From assembly GCA_036702865.1 (NCBI GenBank), contig DATNQD010000081.1:186001-250000 (forward strand): 64,000 bases of DNA, given 5' to 3'. Shown one piece after another: positions 6,236 through 55,974 of the stretch (the stretch's first letter is position 1; each line of letters starts with the position of its first letter). This DNA comes from Trichocoleus sp. Lineage in GTDB: Bacteria > Cyanobacteriota > Cyanobacteriia > Elainellales > Elainellaceae. The translations under genes were made by a program, and so were the position numbers. The notes under the pieces are model-generated. The model was not told the origin of the DNA, did no database searches, and was given only the letters and a program-made list of their open reading frames with translations.

Positions 6236-6706
6236 TTACGTGAGTGGCAAATAGGGAAACAAAGGATGCCAGGTCATCACAGTGGCAGCAATAAACAAAA
6301 TGAATGACCAAAACAACAAAGTTTGTCCCTTAATCGATCGATTTTTCCAAAGTTGATGCAGAATGATCCAACTCACCAACCAACCCACTAAAAGCATCGT
6401 TTCTTTACCTGTATAGCTGCCAATATTGCCATACATAGGATCAGGATGTCGGCTACCTGGAATCCAGCTACCAATGTTCCAGATGATTGCTTCTCTTGTT
6501 TTCGAGGTATCTCCTAAATGATGGGTGATCATCATTGTCAGACAACCAATTCCACCACTGATTAAAGCCGCTGCGGCAGGGCCGGAAACCTCTGGTGAAT
6601 CATGCTTTCCCTTGGCAACGCTCTTGGGGAAATGACGTAATTTTCGCCAGAATGAACCATAGATAGGCTCTGTTGTGCGCGAGTTCGATAAGGTTGATTT
6701 ACTCAT
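6236..6706 (-). CDS. membrane protein, second gene of an unassigned membrane cassette
   Basis: A 156-residue protein with a basic N-terminus (residues 1-40) and about three membrane helices: residues 44-62 (AAALISGGIGCLTMMITHH), about 100-116 (around METMLLVGWLVSW-like residues) and 128-146. Conserved-looking features are a His-His pair (MITHHLGD) at the end of helix 1, a loop rich in Trp, Gly and Pro (WNIGSWIPGSRHPDP), and TWHPLFPY at the C-terminus. The histidines near membrane boundaries could ligate heme or metal, but this is inference. The gene lies 46 bases downstream of the 6752-7375 gene. I do not recognise the family. Confidence 0.65.
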   Translation of the reverse strand: MSKSTLSNSRTTEPIYGSFWRKLRHFPKSVAKGKHDSPEVSGPAAAALISGGIGCLTMMITHHLGDTSKTREAIIWNIGSWIPGSRHPDPMYGNIGSYTGKETMLLVGWLVSWIILHQLWKNRSIKGQTLLFWSFILFIAATVMTWHPLFPYLPLT

Positions 6707-45609: not shown

Positions 45610-46734
45610 ATGATTGAAACATTAAGTCCCGAACAATGGCTGTCGGGAACAACAAATTTTTCGCTGCCAATTTTTGAAACATCAAATTATTCTGAGGCAG
45701 AGCAACAATTTTTGAAGCTGTTGGAAATTGAGAATTTAGACCAGCAGATCAAAGAAAACCCCAGTATTGTGAACGAGTTTGAGGCGGCTTTGGCAACAGC
45801 GCTGAGTGCAGCATATACTCATACGGATACTCAAACTGGGGAGCCAGCAGCACAGCTTTTCTTACAGCGCGTTCTCTATCGTGTCAATCGTCTCAACCTG
45901 TTCTGGTATGACGATTTGCAGCATTATAAAAACGAGCGATCGTTCTATCTTCAGTGGGTGCGCGATCGAATTGAAACGGTCTGGCAAGCCTGGGAAATGG
46001 CACAGATAGATGTCGAGCAAATTCGCCAGATTGCAGATATTCCAAAGGCATTGAGCGATCGATATGCTGCTGATCTGAATCCCCCCATTACTGAAACCAA
46101 ACGCTACTTGCGCGAAGAGATGACCCGGGAAGGTTATCGTCATCTGCTGGCGATCGTCTCTTTGGATGGACTCGTTGAAGCCAGCCGGATGTCTCGGATT
46201 TTGGGTGGCGCAAGTAACGAAGTTCAGGCAATGCTGATCCGGGTACTGATGGAAGAATATGGCAACGGTCGCTTTAACCGGAAGCACTCCACCTTCTTTG
46301 CCAATATGATGGCGGAACTGGGGCTAAAGACTGAACCAGAATCATATTTTGACCTTGCTCCCTGGGAACTGCTGGCGTCAATTAACCACAACTTCTTGCT
46401 GACTGAACGCAAGCGGCATTTCCTTCGCTATAACGGCGGCCTGACCTACTTTGAAATTGTGGGTCCTTCGATCTACCGTGACTATATGACTGCAGCTGAG
46501 CGGCTCGGCTTGTCTGATACTGCAATGGGCTACTGGGAACTGCATATTCGCGAAGACGAGCGACATGGACAGTGGATGTTGGAACAAGTAGCGCTGCCAT
46601 TAGTCGAAATGTATCCCAATGATGCTTGGGAACTGGTGCTTGGCTATGACCAGGAAAAATGGATAGGCGATCGAGCTGGAGCCGCCATTATCAAGGCGAT
46701 TAAAGCAGCCGAGCAAGCTGGAACGGTTCTATAG
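45610..46734 (+). CDS. heme-oxygenase-like diiron oxidase-type protein
   Basis: A 374-residue helical protein of the iron-containing redox enzyme / heme-oxygenase-like diiron oxidase (HDO) type. Potential metal ligands are in two pairs: Glu215/Glu216 and His226 in MEEYGNGRFNRKHSTFF, and Glu310, Asp316/Glu317 and His319 in YWELHIREDERHGQWM, the usual second-helix pattern. A Tyr-rich middle with YNGGLTYFEIVGPSIYRDY is conserved-looking. The N-terminal 180 residues form an extra helical region. HDO enzymes perform N-oxygenation, desaturation or C-C cleavage; the substrate here is unknown. The next gene starts about 65 bases downstream and encodes an NPPY methyltransferase, so the two are a candidate functional pair. 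Confidence 0.8.
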   Translation: MIETLSPEQWLSGTTNFSLPIFETSNYSEAEQQFLKLLEIENLDQQIKENPSIVNEFEAALATALSAAYTHTDTQTGEPAAQLFLQRVLYRVNRLNLFWYDDLQHYKNERSFYLQWVRDRIETVWQAWEMAQIDVEQIRQIADIPKALSDRYAADLNPPITETKRYLREEMTREGYRHLLAIVSLDGLVEASRMSRILGGASNEVQAMLIRVLMEEYGNGRFNRKHSTFFANMMAELGLKTEPESYFDLAPWELLASINHNFLLTERKRHFLRYNGGLTYFEIVGPSIYRDYMTAAERLGLSDTAMGYWELHIREDERHGQWMLEQVALPLVEMYPNDAWELVLGYDQEKWIGDRAGAAIIKAIKAAEQAGTVL

Positions 46735-46798
46735 AGAGAGTTTGTGGGGCGATCGTCTGCCCAAGTTTTTTTATCCCAATTTACACCAAGGATATTTC

Positions 46799-47566
46799 AT
46801 GAAAGAAGCACTGTTGAACGCTACAACGGTAAAGCGGCATGCGCCTAGTTCCGTTAAATCCTATTCACCCAACGAAGTTTTCTTCTGCCCTGAAGAGTCA
46901 CAGTTTTATTCTCAGTGCTTAGAAAAGTTGATTCTCAATCAGGGTAAAGAACCTATCTCAATGATTGAGTTTGGTGCAGGCGATGGCAGCCCTGTCATTC
47001 ATTGCTTGATCAAGACTCCTTTTGCGGGTGAAATTCATGGCTATGAGTTGAATCCTTCTGCCTGTGATTTAGCGCGTTCTCGGATTAAACAATATCAGCT
47101 TGAGGGCAAATACACGGTTCACAATCAGTGCTTTTTTGAGGGGCTGCGATCGTCTTCTTTCAGCCATTTGATTGCCAACCCGCCTTACATTCCTGCCCCG
47201 GATGACGATATTTGTATGCCTGCTTTGCATGGCGGTGTAGATGGTGCCACCATTACAAAACAGCTTTTGTCGTTAGATTGTGACAATGTGATGCTGATGA
47301 TTTCGGCATACTCAAATCCGATCGAAACGATTGAATGTGCAATCGAGCAAGGCTATCACGTTGCCGATTTTATGGTGACTCCACTCCACTTTGGCTACTA
47401 CAGTTCTGAGCCAAAAGTTCGCAATTGGATTACAGAGATGCGGAAGCATCAAAAAGCGTTCTACTCGGCAAACATCTATTTTCTGGCAGGTGTTTTGTTT
47501 GAGAAGAAACGCCAATCGAGCGTTGACTTATCTGCTGAACTGCTGAAGGTAATGACTGCGCTGTAG
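46799..47566 (+). CDS. SAM-dependent methyltransferase with NPPY motif
   Basis: A 255-residue class I methyltransferase. The SAM-binding loop is IEFGAGDGSP (near 56-64) and the catalytic motif is ANPPYIPAP (NPPY 127-130), which is found in enzymes that methylate amide or exocyclic nitrogens (glutamine in release factors, adenine in DNA/RNA, also some small molecules). There is no DNA-recognition domain, so a restriction role is unlikely. AAGGA lies 7 bases before ATG 46799; the frame reaching 46742 is not used. It follows the diiron protein and probably acts with it. Confidence 0.8.
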   Translation: MKEALLNATTVKRHAPSSVKSYSPNEVFFCPEESQFYSQCLEKLILNQGKEPISMIEFGAGDGSPVIHCLIKTPFAGEIHGYELNPSACDLARSRIKQYQLEGKYTVHNQCFFEGLRSSSFSHLIANPPYIPAPDDDICMPALHGGVDGATITKQLLSLDCDNVMLMISAYSNPIETIECAIEQGYHVADFMVTPLHFGYYSSEPKVRNWITEMRKHQKAFYSANIYFLAGVLFEKKRQSSVDLSAELLKVMTAL

Positions 47567-51037: not shown

Positions 51038-52126
51038 CTAGCGACTGTCAGCCAGCACAGATTTGGCAGCAAGAGAAAAGACACTGCGCCATACTGATAA
51101 ATTATTGGGTAGCGTTAGCGCCGATCTCATGCCGTTAGCGATCGCTTTCAAAGGCTGACCATTGCGATGATTGCGCCAGGCTTCACCCAATAAAAAGCCT
51201 TGGATATGCTCGGCAGCAGACATTGGGGGCTTCTTATGCTCTGGTGGAATTGGCGGCGGGCATCCCTGATCCAGGGCATCAATTCCGACGGTTTGTCGCT
51301 GCTGCTGAAACTCCCGTGCCACCTGATCAAAAAACTCGCGCTCGGTTGAGCTTTTCGTGTGGGTAATTGATTTCTTGTGCACCCGATAATAATAGTGAAC
51401 GCCGGGCAGATACCAGACTTTTGTCTTGTCTCCCAGGCGCAGCTGCATATCAATGTCTTCACCTGTGATGAAATAGGGACGGAATCCGCCTACTGCCCGT
51501 AGTACGTCAGCCCGGATTGCAAAGGTGCAAAGATGAGTCCGAGTCGTGCCTGCTTGGAGTTCAGCAGTGATGTCTTCTGAATTAGTGCCACACTCAAACG
51601 TAATAATGCGCTGTCCCTTAGGATTAATTGCTGCATAACTGCCACAAACCGCACCGAATTCGGGATGGCGATTGAGCCAGTTTACCTGACGCTCCACCCG
51701 ATCGATCGGGTAAATATCATCTGCATCACAACGGACAATAATGCTGCCACGCGCTTTTGCTAAGCCAGTATTGAGTGCATCGGCGATTCCCTTACCAGCA
51801 TTGTTGACGATTTGGATGCGATCGTCTTTAATACTATGCAGTTTTTGCAATGAACGATCGGTCGAGCCATCATTCACAACGATGACCTCTAGTGGAATCT
51901 GCCGCACCGATAAGACTGAAGTTAGTGCATCTACAACGTAAGATTCAGCGTTGAATAGTGGCATGATGATGCTAACTAGAGCATTGTCATGATTTGATTG
52001 CACAGTAAATGTCTCCTCAGTTCTTCTTTTATTGAGCTGCTTCAAAATGCGCTCAGGCAATAGCAAAGACTGCCCTACAGCAAAAATAGCCTGGAATGCA
52101 CTGTTTTCAGTCCTATCCTGTGACAA
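51038..52126 (-). CDS. family 2 glycosyltransferase A, last in operon
   Basis: A 362-residue GT-A fold enzyme. The GT2 start is SIIMPLFNAESYVVDALTSV; the metal-sugar motif is RCDADD. An N-terminal extension of about 48 residues precedes the domain. The start appears to be TTG 52126, with TAGGG just upstream; the gap to the preceding GT is 18 bases. The C-terminal region (EHIQGFLLGEAWRNHRNGQP) differs from the module shared by the other four GTs, so it is the most divergent copy. Acceptor and donor are unknown. Confidence 0.8.
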   Translation of the reverse strand: MSQDRTENSAFQAIFAVGQSLLLPERILKQLNKRRTEETFTVQSNHDNALVSIIMPLFNAESYVVDALTSVLSVRQIPLEVIVVNDGSTDRSLQKLHSIKDDRIQIVNNAGKGIADALNTGLAKARGSIIVRCDADDIYPIDRVERQVNWLNRHPEFGAVCGSYAAINPKGQRIITFECGTNSEDITAELQAGTTRTHLCTFAIRADVLRAVGGFRPYFITGEDIDMQLRLGDKTKVWYLPGVHYYYRVHKKSITHTKSSTEREFFDQVAREFQQQRQTVGIDALDQGCPPPIPPEHKKPPMSAAEHIQGFLLGEAWRNHRNGQPLKAIANGMRSALTLPNNLSVWRSVFSLAAKSVLADSR

Positions 52127-52144
52127 TCACCCTAGGCGTCACCT

Positions 52145-53107
52145 CTATCTGTGGTTAAATTTATCCGGCTTCAAGTTTAAAGGTAACTGCTGCGGGGCAG
52201 CCTTCAAAACTGCGCAGGCTAAGAGTTTCCAGCCCTCAAGACGGTAGGGAATTACTCGTATTGCCTTCAGCCCATAAATGGCAGCCGTCGATCGCTCCCC
52301 ACTGCTCAATGCCCACCAGCCATATTGCAGCATAAACTGATAGCGAGATTTGGCATCTCTACCGGGTCTCCAGGGGTTGCCTGCTTCAAACTCACATTTA
52401 ATGTTGCGTCGCTTCCAGGCAAATTCGCAGGCTCGACGGGCTTGTTCGCGTTGAAACAAAGCTGCCTGAGCACTGACTGAGTGGCAATGAAGACGATAGC
52501 GCAACACTGGCTTTTCCAAATTAGCAAGCTGTCCCACCTCCCCCAGCTTTAGCCACAGATCAACGTCTTCTGCAGGCATCAGCGTTTCGTCATAGCCGCC
52601 AATCTTGAGCAGTGCCGATCGCCGCATCATTGCTGTGGGATGACAAATACTGCCGTGCCCTGCGAGGGCTGCTTGCTGAATTTCGGCATCGGTTGTCCCA
52701 ATCTTGAGCGCAACCAGAAATCGCCCTTTATGGTCAATGAGTTCAAATGCACCGCCAACACAAACGACATCCGGATGCTGCTGGAGGAAACTCACTTGAT
52801 GCCTGAATCGATCGGGCAGCGCCACATCATCGGCATCCATTCGAGCAATATATCTGCCTTGTGCTTGCTGCAGCATTTCATTAAGTGCAGACACGTAGCC
52901 TGCATTAGAGCGGCTCACCAGATGAATCCGCCCATCCCTGGCAGCATAACGTTTCAGAATGGAGAGGGATCGATCGGTTGAGCCATCGTCAATAATCAAA
53001 AATTCAAAGTCTTGAAAAGTTTGATCCAAAATACTTTCAACTGCCTGAGCCACATATCGCTCTGCGTTGTAGACAGGCATCAGCACTGAGAGCAGGGGAG
53101 ATGTCAT
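52145..53107 (-). CDS. family 2 glycosyltransferase B
   Basis: A 320-residue GT2 enzyme: LLSVLMPVYNAERYVAQAVE at the start, metal motif MDADDVALPDR, and the acceptor-region pattern AMMRRSALLKIGGYDETLMP. Its C-terminus has QYGWWALSSGERSTAAIYGL, the module shared with copies C, D and E. It lies 40 bases downstream of copy C. Donor and acceptor are unknown; the arrangement suggests sequential assembly of a surface polysaccharide. Confidence 0.85.
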   Translation of the reverse strand: MTSPLLSVLMPVYNAERYVAQAVESILDQTFQDFEFLIIDDGSTDRSLSILKRYAARDGRIHLVSRSNAGYVSALNEMLQQAQGRYIARMDADDVALPDRFRHQVSFLQQHPDVVCVGGAFELIDHKGRFLVALKIGTTDAEIQQAALAGHGSICHPTAMMRRSALLKIGGYDETLMPAEDVDLWLKLGEVGQLANLEKPVLRYRLHCHSVSAQAALFQREQARRACEFAWKRRNIKCEFEAGNPWRPGRDAKSRYQFMLQYGWWALSSGERSTAAIYGLKAIRVIPYRLEGWKLLACAVLKAAPQQLPLNLKPDKFNHR

Positions 53108-53147
53108 GGGTACTTACAAATGAGAAATGGAAGAGAGTGAAACGGGA

Positions 53148-54137
53148 TCAAGAGGCAGGGAACGGTTTAATCAGGGCACAAGCAAGCAGGTTCCAACTTT
53201 CGATTGAGCCTGGATTGAGAACGATCGCCTGGGTACCGTAGCGGATGGCAGTCTGCCGTTGTCGATTGCTAAATGCCCACCAGCCATATTTGAGCGCGAA
53301 GGCATGACGAGATGGGCGATCGGGCTTTGGTCGCCAGGCACAAACCATCGTGACTTGGGGCTTTTCGCGAATCATGCCCTTCTGCCAGGCGCGATCGAGA
53401 GCAGTCTGAACCGCTTGAGGCGGCAGCCCTTGATACCGATCGCAGATCGAATTTCCATGCAAGCGATATTGCACAACAGGTTCAGGCAAATTTGCCAGTG
53501 CCCCAATTTCGCCGAGCCGCAGCCACAAGTCCAAATCTTCTGCCAGGGGCAAGCTTTCGTCATAGCCGCCCACCTGAAGCACTGCTGACCGCCGTATCAG
53601 GGCAGTGGGATGTAAAAAGCTGATATGTCCGTCCTGTAAAAGGGCTTTAATTTCACTGTCTTGTTCTGCCAGCGGAATTTTTGTGATCAGCCGTCCACCG
53701 CGATCGATCAACTCAAACGCCCCACCTACCCAAACCACCTCAGGCGATTGCTGCAAAAACGCCACCTGTCGAGCCAGTCGATCGGGGAGGGCGACATCAT
53801 CAGAATCCATCACTGCAATAAATTCGCCCCGCGCTTCCCGCAGCAACTCATTTCGAGTTTGAGGAATCCCTCGATTTTCCCGACTGATCAGCCGGATTCG
53901 CTGATCCTGAACCGCATAGCGCCGGAGAATCGAGAGCGATCGATCAGTCGAGCCATCATCCAAAATCACTAGCTCAAAATCCCGAAAGCTTTGCTGCAAG
54001 ATACTTTCTACCGCTCGTTCTAGAAAACGCTCTGTGTTGTAGACCGCCATCAAAACTGAAACGGTTGGACAGTGAAGGTCAAAGGCTTTTTGCTCCCCGT
54101 CTCCTCTGCATTCCAGCAAACGATCGATCGCCTTCAT
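53148..54137 (-). CDS. family 2 glycosyltransferase C
   Basis: A 329-residue GT2 enzyme with an N-terminal extension of about 24 residues, then TVSVLMAVYNTERFLERAVE and the motif MDSDDVALPDRLA, so its DxD is Asp-Ser-Asp rather than Asp-Ala-Asp. It carries the shared C-terminal module (KYGWWAFSNRQRQTAIRYGT). Its ATG overlaps the stop of copy D by four bases (ATGA), a sign of translational coupling. Confidence 0.85.
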   Translation of the reverse strand: MKAIDRLLECRGDGEQKAFDLHCPTVSVLMAVYNTERFLERAVESILQQSFRDFELVILDDGSTDRSLSILRRYAVQDQRIRLISRENRGIPQTRNELLREARGEFIAVMDSDDVALPDRLARQVAFLQQSPEVVWVGGAFELIDRGGRLITKIPLAEQDSEIKALLQDGHISFLHPTALIRRSAVLQVGGYDESLPLAEDLDLWLRLGEIGALANLPEPVVQYRLHGNSICDRYQGLPPQAVQTALDRAWQKGMIREKPQVTMVCAWRPKPDRPSRHAFALKYGWWAFSNRQRQTAIRYGTQAIVLNPGSIESWNLLACALIKPFPAS

Positions 54138-55066
54138 ACCGACTGCACCTCCGGTAGGGGTTTAATCAAGGCACAAATCAGCAGCCTCCAGCTATCTAGG
54201 TTGAGAGGCAGGGTTTGAATCGCTTTCATGCCATAAACTACCGCAGCCTGCCTATCTCCTCGACTGAAAAATATCCAGCCGTATTGCAGCAGAAACTGGT
54301 GGCGAGAAGCTCGATCGGTCGGTCGCCAAGGAAAAATTTCGGGAAATGTGTCCGTAATGCCGCGTCGTTTCCAGGCTTGTTCGCAGGCGTAGCGCCGCTG
54401 CTGTGTTTGTTTGGCTTGCAGTTGCTCGCTGATCGATCGATCGTGCTGCCGATATTTCAGAACGGTGTCTGGCAGGTTTGCGAGTGCGCCAATTTCGCCG
54501 AGCCGCAGCCACAAATCGAGATCTTCTGCCGGATACATTAACTCGTCGTAGCCGCCGACTTGCAGCAGCGCTGATCGCCGCATCAGAGCAGATGGGTGAT
54601 TGATGGCAGTCTGTCCTCGCAAGAGCTTTTCCTGAATGTCGCTGTCCTGTTCTGCCTCATGGTTATGTCTCAGGAGCCGTCCAGCTTCATCGATCCAATC
54701 TTGGGCACCGCCCACACAAACAACTTGCGGGTAACGCTGCAAAAACGCCACCTGACGAGCAAATCGATCGGGCAGTGCCACATCATCGGCATCCATACGG
54801 GCAATCAATTCGCCGCTTGCCTGGGTCAGCAGTTCGTTGAGGGTTTTGACAAAGCCTTGATTGGGGCGGCTCCTGAGGCGAATGCGCGAGTCTTGGGCTG
54901 CATAATGCTGGAGAATAGAGAGCGATCGATCGGTTGAGCCATCGTCAATGATCAGCAGTTCAAAATCTGTGAAGCTTTGATTCAAAATGCTCTCGATCGC
55001 TGCTGCCACAAATTGCTGAGCATTGTAGACCGGCATTAAGACAGAAAGGAGAGGAAACTGGCTCAT
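54134..55066 (-). CDS. family 2 glycosyltransferase D
   Basis: A 310-residue GT2 enzyme: FPLLSVLMPVYNAQQFVAAA, metal motif MDADDVALPDRFA, and the C-terminal module QYGWIFFSRGDRQAAVVYGM. The frame continues to 55117, but ATG 55066 overlaps copy E's stop by four bases and starts at the conserved N-terminus, so it is preferred. Coupled to both neighbouring GT genes. Confidence 0.85.
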   Translation of the reverse strand: MSQFPLLSVLMPVYNAQQFVAAAIESILNQSFTDFELLIIDDGSTDRSLSILQHYAAQDSRIRLRSRPNQGFVKTLNELLTQASGELIARMDADDVALPDRFARQVAFLQRYPQVVCVGGAQDWIDEAGRLLRHNHEAEQDSDIQEKLLRGQTAINHPSALMRRSALLQVGGYDELMYPAEDLDLWLRLGEIGALANLPDTVLKYRQHDRSISEQLQAKQTQQRRYACEQAWKRRGITDTFPEIFPWRPTDRASRHQFLLQYGWIFFSRGDRQAAVVYGMKAIQTLPLNLDSWRLLICALIKPLPEVQSV

Positions 55067-55974
55067 GGCTGTCCCTCCGGTAATGGTTTCAGGGAAGCGC
55101 AGGTGAGGAGCCGCCAACCTTCCAAATTGAGCGGAAGGGCTTTAATGGCACGCAGCCCATAACGAATTGCTTTGTCTCTACGACCGCTCATCCAGAGTTG
55201 CCAGCCACACTGAACGATAAACTGATGTCTCCAGGCACGCGAGGGGGCGTAATGCCCGTGGATTCCGCGTCGTTGCCAGGCTCGTTCGCAGGCAAGCAGA
55301 GCGTTTTGTTTTTGTTGAGTTGCCTGTCTTTCGCTGACTGAATCCCTGTGAACTCGATAGCGCAGCAGCACCTCTGGTAGGTTTGAGAGTTCGCCCAATT
55401 CACCAAGCTTCAGCCACAAATCAAGATCTTGTGCCGATCGCAGGCTTTCGTCATAGCCCCCCACTTTCAGCATGGCTTCGCGTCGAATCAGGGCAGAGGG
55501 GTGACAGAGATGATTTTGCCCGGACAGCATCAGCGCTTGCAATTCAGCATTATCACCTGTTGGCTGCCAGTGATGCAGCTTGTCTCCGTCTTCGTCGATC
55601 CAATCCTGGGCAGTGCCGACACAAACGATTTGGGGCAAATTTTGAAGAAACTCGACTTGTCGCGCTAAGCGATTCGGCAAAGCAATGTCATCCGCATCCA
55701 TTCGGGCAATGAATTCACCTTGCGCTTGTGCCAGCAGTTCATTTAACGATCGCGTTAATCCCCGGTTTTCTCGTCTGGTTAACCGAATTCGGGCATCTTG
55801 AGCTGCATAGGAGCGCAAAATTTCAGCAGAACGATCGGTCGAACCGTCATCTAGAATCAGAAATTCAAAGTCGGTGAAAGTTTGGCACAGCATACTGTCG
55901 ATCGCTGCTGAGAGAAAGCGATCGTTGTTGTAAACCGACATCAGGATACTAACGGTGGGAAGGGAGTTGTTCAT
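55063..55974 (-). CDS. family 2 glycosyltransferase E, first GT of the operon
   Basis: A 303-residue GT2 enzyme: LPTVSILMSVYNNDRFLSAA, motif MDADDIALPNRLA, and the shared C-terminal module (QCGWQLWMSGRRDKAIRYGL). Its ATG lies 26 bases inside the end of the ABC ATPase gene, so it is translated as part of the exporter operon. Acceptor specificity is unknown. Confidence 0.85.
   Translation of the reverse strand: MNNSLPTVSILMSVYNNDRFLSAAIDSMLCQTFTDFEFLILDDGSTDRSAEILRSYAAQDARIRLTRRENRGLTRSLNELLAQAQGEFIARMDADDIALPNRLARQVEFLQNLPQIVCVGTAQDWIDEDGDKLHHWQPTGDNAELQALMLSGQNHLCHPSALIRREAMLKVGGYDESLRSAQDLDLWLKLGELGELSNLPEVLLRYRVHRDSVSERQATQQKQNALLACERAWQRRGIHGHYAPSRAWRHQFIVQCGWQLWMSGRRDKAIRYGLRAIKALPLNLEGWRLLTCASLKPLPEGQP

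Follow-up and report, generated by a model that had tools for sequence, protein, structure and literature searches.

Can two neighbouring genes that stand outside any recognisable biosynthetic cluster form an enzyme system of their own? The question is raised by an oxidase-like gene and a methyltransferase gene that lie side by side in a cyanobacterial genome of 5.9 Mb, within the 64,000-nucleotide stretch analysed here (the window), and that an earlier note had taken for a possible compact, undescribed oxidation/methylation cassette. To our knowledge, the N-oxygenases studied so far are encoded in dedicated biosynthetic clusters, and a cluster-less two-gene pair would escape cluster-based genome mining. 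In the open-access papers searched, a coverage outside which most subscription journals fall, we found no description of a stand-alone pair of a heme-oxygenase-like diiron protein (HDO) and a methyltransferase (MT). Such a pair may lead to an N-oxygenated metabolite that is common yet has gone unseen and, consisting of just two genes with a clear metal-site prediction, it is easy to test.

Both open reading frames were present at the position reported and on the same strand, with the following features:

45610..46734, plus strand: HDO gene, diiron N-oxygenase-like protein of 374 aa, PF14518; predicted ligands E190, E216, H226, E282, H312, D316 and H319
46177..46179, plus strand: codon of E190, predicted fourth carboxylate on an auxiliary helix; aligns with SznF E189 and is invariant in relatives
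46255..46287, plus strand: codons of E216 to H226, predicted core helix 1 ligands; the helix is broken by a loop in the model
46543..46566, plus strand: codons of H312-x3-D316-x2-H319, predicted core helix 3 ligands, from alignment and invariance
46735..46798, plus strand: 64-base gap between HDO and MT, in which an AAGGA ribosome-binding-like site precedes ATG 46799
46799..47566, plus strand: MT gene, HemK-like class I SAM methyltransferase of 255 aa, NPPY at residues 127-130, without a recognition domain

The start that the ORF caller assigned to MT (TTG 46742) is unlikely and probably 57 bases too early. We place the start at ATG 46799 because the AAGGA site lies in front of it and the resulting N-terminus matches that of a relative (L030); the length of the gap follows from this choice. 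In the window the pair follows a gene that by inspection is CTP-synthase-like and precedes an LmeA-domain gene, and its nearest relatives at this locus are cyanobacterial.

Conservation and separability of the pairing

A first survey took in 292 genomes of the phylum; 21 of them contained HDO, and the same 21 contained MT at a threshold of E < 1e-20. Among 390 genomes of the class, 79 carried both genes, 11 HDO only, one MT only and 299 neither, a co-occurrence with a Fisher p of 3e-69 that ignores shared descent and is not for literal reading. Loci were also collected via MT alone, and 79 of the resulting 80 were cyanobacterial. HDO adjoins MT in 74 of these 79, with HDO followed by MT on the same strand in 62, the two genes convergent in 12, and no other order observed. 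The five cyanobacterial genomes in which the genes are not adjacent all have HDO elsewhere, and two of these loci (L115 and L136) are cut by a contig end. The expectation that the two genes would co-occur and adjoin one another in cyanobacteria is thus borne out. Loci with the convergent arrangement fall into three or more parts of the HDO tree; at these 12 loci HDO and MT cannot belong to a single operon. Distances in the HDO and MT trees correlate with r = 0.84, against at most 0.30 in shuffles, a value that partly reflects shared species history.

The statement that the pair has no adjoining gene for a peptide precursor, an NRPS or a tailoring enzyme holds across its relatives, in which just two genes recur and no third neighbour is conserved beyond lineage-wide synteny. 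Dozens of filamentous cyanobacteria retain HDO and MT as a pair, with no further partner gene, a pattern suggestive of an undescribed pathway of two enzymes. Small-ORF clusters near the pair, considered as candidate peptide precursors, look like readings of the HDO and MT genes in other frames.

With regard to regulation, a leader riboswitch was rejected, as no Rfam match was obtained in the window. Nostocales loci (L111, L119 and others) share a conserved leader, TTTCTTTATAACCAGGGAAAGAGGTACAGAAAGCTAC..., which lies some 110 bases ahead of the HDO start (in L119 at 6552-6681) and carries an NtcA-like GTAN8TAC. This leader has no consensus RNA fold and was not seen upstream of HDO in the window, and matches for the L119 upstream region fell far under gathering scores. 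Regulation by NtcA was likewise rejected: GTAN8TAC occurs in 34 of 72 upstream regions compared with 6.6 in shuffles, yet mostly as one inherited element, and the canonical spacing is found in 2 of the 72, while the window lacks the motif.

The pairing is not obligate. Genomes with HDO only fall mainly in two genera (g119 and g161), and all metal ligands are kept in those examined. In g161, HDO often has as neighbours a gene for a SufU-like iron-sulfur scaffold and one for a MOSC-domain-like protein (both named by inspection). A SufU/NifU-like scaffold gene lies directly downstream, on the same strand, at four loci where HDO occurs alone or separated from MT (L168, L169, L170 and L172). The sole non-cyanobacterial MT relative among the 80 loci, at 42% identity, belongs to a Desulfobacteraceae MAG (L160:8046-8753), where it lies behind ruvABC-like genes, directly after the ruvB-like gene. 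No HDO of this kind was found in this MAG, and 148 genomes of its phylum held no MT relative besides the MAG's own. HDO relatives on plasmids have 21-32% identity, and none of them shares a record with MT; viral contigs gave no MT. As HDO occurs alone in two genera and MT alone in one MAG, each gene can be kept singly, and their functions are linked but separable. The idea of a compact two-enzyme cassette is well supported by co-occurrence, by an adjacency that persists when a strand is inverted and by the parallel trees, but the pairing is not obligate. Decayed copies also occur: at one locus (L079, G062:C12) a broken HDO lies beside an intact MT, while a second contig of the same genome holds a divergent HDO that is intact, and at another (L080, G056:C1) fragments of both genes lie side by side.

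Predicted metal site of the oxidase and fold of the methyltransferase

HDO matches PF14518 ('iron-containing redox enzyme') over residues 179-344 with 103.8 bits (cut-off 28.9, E = 1.2e-29), without a second Pfam domain above cut-off in its 374 residues; the genome has no other match to PF14518. Both Glu/His metal motifs listed in the earlier note are present (E216 and H226 in EEYGNGRFNRKH; H312, D316 and H319 in LHIREDERH), and E190 and E282, which were missing from that list, complete a set of seven predicted ligands. In the alignment these are invariant in 70 of 70 relatives, and they are also kept in eight further HDO relatives without an adjoining MT. Six of them (E216, H226, E282, H312, D316 and H319) constitute the 3 His/3 carboxylate set of core helices 1-3, to which the invariant E190 adds a further Glu on auxiliary helix 2. 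This extra Glu marks the 3H/4C subgroup, to which roughly one HDO in four is estimated to belong; it was first seen in SznF and is present in RohS (E93), with a hydrophobic residue in its place in substrate-triggered HDOs such as AetD (PMC11611611, PMC13108848). The seven ligands align with E189, E215, H225, E281, H311, D315 and H318 of SznF in the order E190, E216, H226, E282, H312, D316 and H319, and the last six of these SznF residues are its essential ligands (PMC11705231).

The HDO model (pLDDT 84.5) has the seven-helix heme-oxygenase fold, and a loop at residues 218-225 interrupts core helix 1, as reported for SznF and CADD (PMC11611611). The fold comparison is headed by HrmI (Z 29.9, 329 residues aligned, rmsd 3.3), SznF (25.9) and RohS (25.3), with FlcD (22.5), BesC (16.3), CADD (16.1), AetD (14.4) and UndA (13.4) lower down; Foldseek agrees with this ranking, N-oxygenases first. 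The PDB sequence matches are also all N-oxygenases, namely RohS (E = 4.9e-20), SznF (5.6e-14) and HrmI (6.8e-5). Since the likeness to HrmI covers nearly the whole chain (residues 25-366, including the N-terminal helices) and HrmI itself is 3H/3C, HDO appears to combine an HrmI-like architecture with an SznF-like site. Ligand conservation and predicted fold both support a metal site, and HDO is predicted to bind diiron in a 3H/4C site. They also narrow the oxidation role first proposed to probable N-oxygenation, although HDOs that share the same ligands may carry out different reactions (PMC13108848). HDOs of known function number only about a dozen (PMC13108848). We regard the HDO of the pair as a new subfamily within a known kind. 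Two HDO paralogues, 37-38% identical (L176:6663-7850 and L177:1214-2353), have most metal ligands replaced and are possibly non-metal proteins or pseudo-enzymes.

The description of MT as an NPPY methyltransferase without a DNA-recognition domain agrees with its sequence (N127-P-P-Y130) and with its model (pLDDT 89), a bare class I core with no extra domain and with very low confidence limited to residues 1-16. Its family is characterised by the motifs FxCPEESxFY ... FGYYSxxPKV ... AFYSxxxYxLAGVLF, with F28, C30-P31-E33-S34, NPPY, FGxYS and LAG invariant. MT shares the NPPY-bearing core of HemK2/N6AMT1 and PrmC (Z 18-19; N6AMT1 19, PrmC 17.8), but at 15-18% identity and without the PrmC-type N-terminal domain. 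Its best relevant scores against the HemK/PrmC equivalog and subfamily models of NCBIfam are 27-38 bits versus cut-offs of 87-243, and it lies far below the cut-off of every curated NCBIfam family. Peptide or small-molecule N-methyltransferases have a similar fold (Z 15-17; AerE 16.9, PsiM 15.9, Asc-Orf2 14.9), though they are only 11-14% identical and AerE and PsiM are longer; MmtN (15.8) is also among the matches. NPPY is common to protein, RNA and DNA methyltransferases and does not fix the substrate, nor does the fold, whose matches mix protein, peptide and small-molecule targets. We consider MT a new family of known fold, which probably transfers its methyl group to nitrogen. With 255 aa and the core fold only, it lacks the target recognition domain of a DNA N6-adenine methyltransferase, and no restriction partner is conserved nearby. 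PADLOC returned weak generic methyltransferase matches only. The one other MT match in the genome is weak, a 302-aa frame on another contig with the length expected of a true PrmC.

Proposed function and competing readings

A known system offers a precedent for combining the two activities: in the streptozotocin pathway, SznE methylates arginine and SznF then N-hydroxylates it (PMC11705231). The likeness extends to a methyltransferase acting with a 3H/4C HDO whose seven ligands all align. In contrast to SznF, however, the cyanobacterial HDO has no C-terminal cupin domain with three His, identity is about 20%, and the pair lies outside a biosynthetic cluster. MT would correspond to SznE in role. 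HrmI/BelK, which forms the N6-nitro group of lysine, is the best fold match, but it lacks the fourth carboxylate, is 17% identical and occurs in another context. RohS, the azomycin N-oxygenase, is the best PDB sequence match and has the extra Glu (PMC11611611), but is shorter at the N-terminus and again about 20% identical.

We give about an even chance to the reading that the pair is a stand-alone small-molecule module, in which HDO would carry out N-oxygenation and MT a methylation, probably N-methylation. HDO would bind two irons via its 3H/4C ligands, activate O2 without prior substrate, and oxygenate a common cellular metabolite at a nitrogen in an amine, guanidine or aminoheterocycle. 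MT would move a methyl group from SAM, most likely onto nitrogen, of the same substrate or its oxidised product. We infer that the two enzymes share a substrate which, as the genes stand alone, is probably a primary metabolite. A more tentative and rather doubtful extension is that the product would be an undescribed but widespread cyanobacterial metabolite, both N-oxygenated (hydroxylamine, nitro or N-N) and N-methylated, made by two enzymes from a primary metabolite with no recognisable cluster. Nostocine A, an N-methyl, N-N pigment of Nostoc spongiaeforme, was considered as a product and found no support despite the presence of the pair in N. spongiaeforme (L104), because pseudoiodinine, a related compound, is made through seven different genes, none of them for an HDO (PMC9911603).

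Functionally linked enzymes could instead act on a protein or peptide encoded elsewhere, with MT methylating an amide side chain and HDO oxidising a residue. The closest MT folds are protein glutamine/lysine methyltransferases and the peptide N-methyltransferase AerE; PrmC, N6AMT1 and AerE methylate amide side chains and could serve as models for MT, and HDOs acting on ribosomal peptides have been mentioned (PMC13108848). We nevertheless judge a protein target unlikely, given that no conserved small ORF or precursor was found near the pair, that MT is without the N-terminal domain of PrmC, and that the nearest HDO relatives use free amino acids or small heterocycles. A similarly low probability attaches to a stress-protective HDO, with MT modifying the same protective metabolite or acting separately. 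The model here would be Acinetobacter DtpC, an HDO outside a biosynthetic cluster. DtpC keeps peroxide down when cells are dried, and tolerance of desiccation depends on its ligands (PMC13232832). The names of several carriers (Microcoleus vaginatus, Dulcicalothrix desertica, Scytonema, Nostoc) give an impression of soil or crust habitats. However, neither a catalase nor a stress gene recurs next to the pair, MT is left unexplained, and DtpC's own reaction is no guide.

Two further readings question the enzyme or the pairing itself. HDO could be of another type (lyase, desaturase or cyclase), as the reaction cannot be read from the ligands by themselves (PMC13108848), but the invariant fourth carboxylate and the leading place of N-oxygenases in the fold ranking make this rather improbable. 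That the two genes are independent, and neighbours merely through shared ancestry, would accord with the convergent orientation in some lineages and with the two genera that have HDO alone. This seems very improbable to us, since the distribution over the 390 genomes, with 12 discordant against 79 carrying both and 299 neither, is far beyond chance (phylogeny uncorrected), and adjacency outlasts the inversion of MT, seen in three or more parts of the HDO tree, in surroundings that otherwise differ.

Elsewhere in the window, positions 51038-55974 of the minus strand hold five consecutive related ORFs that resemble family 2 glycosyltransferases and may constitute a locus for a surface polysaccharide.
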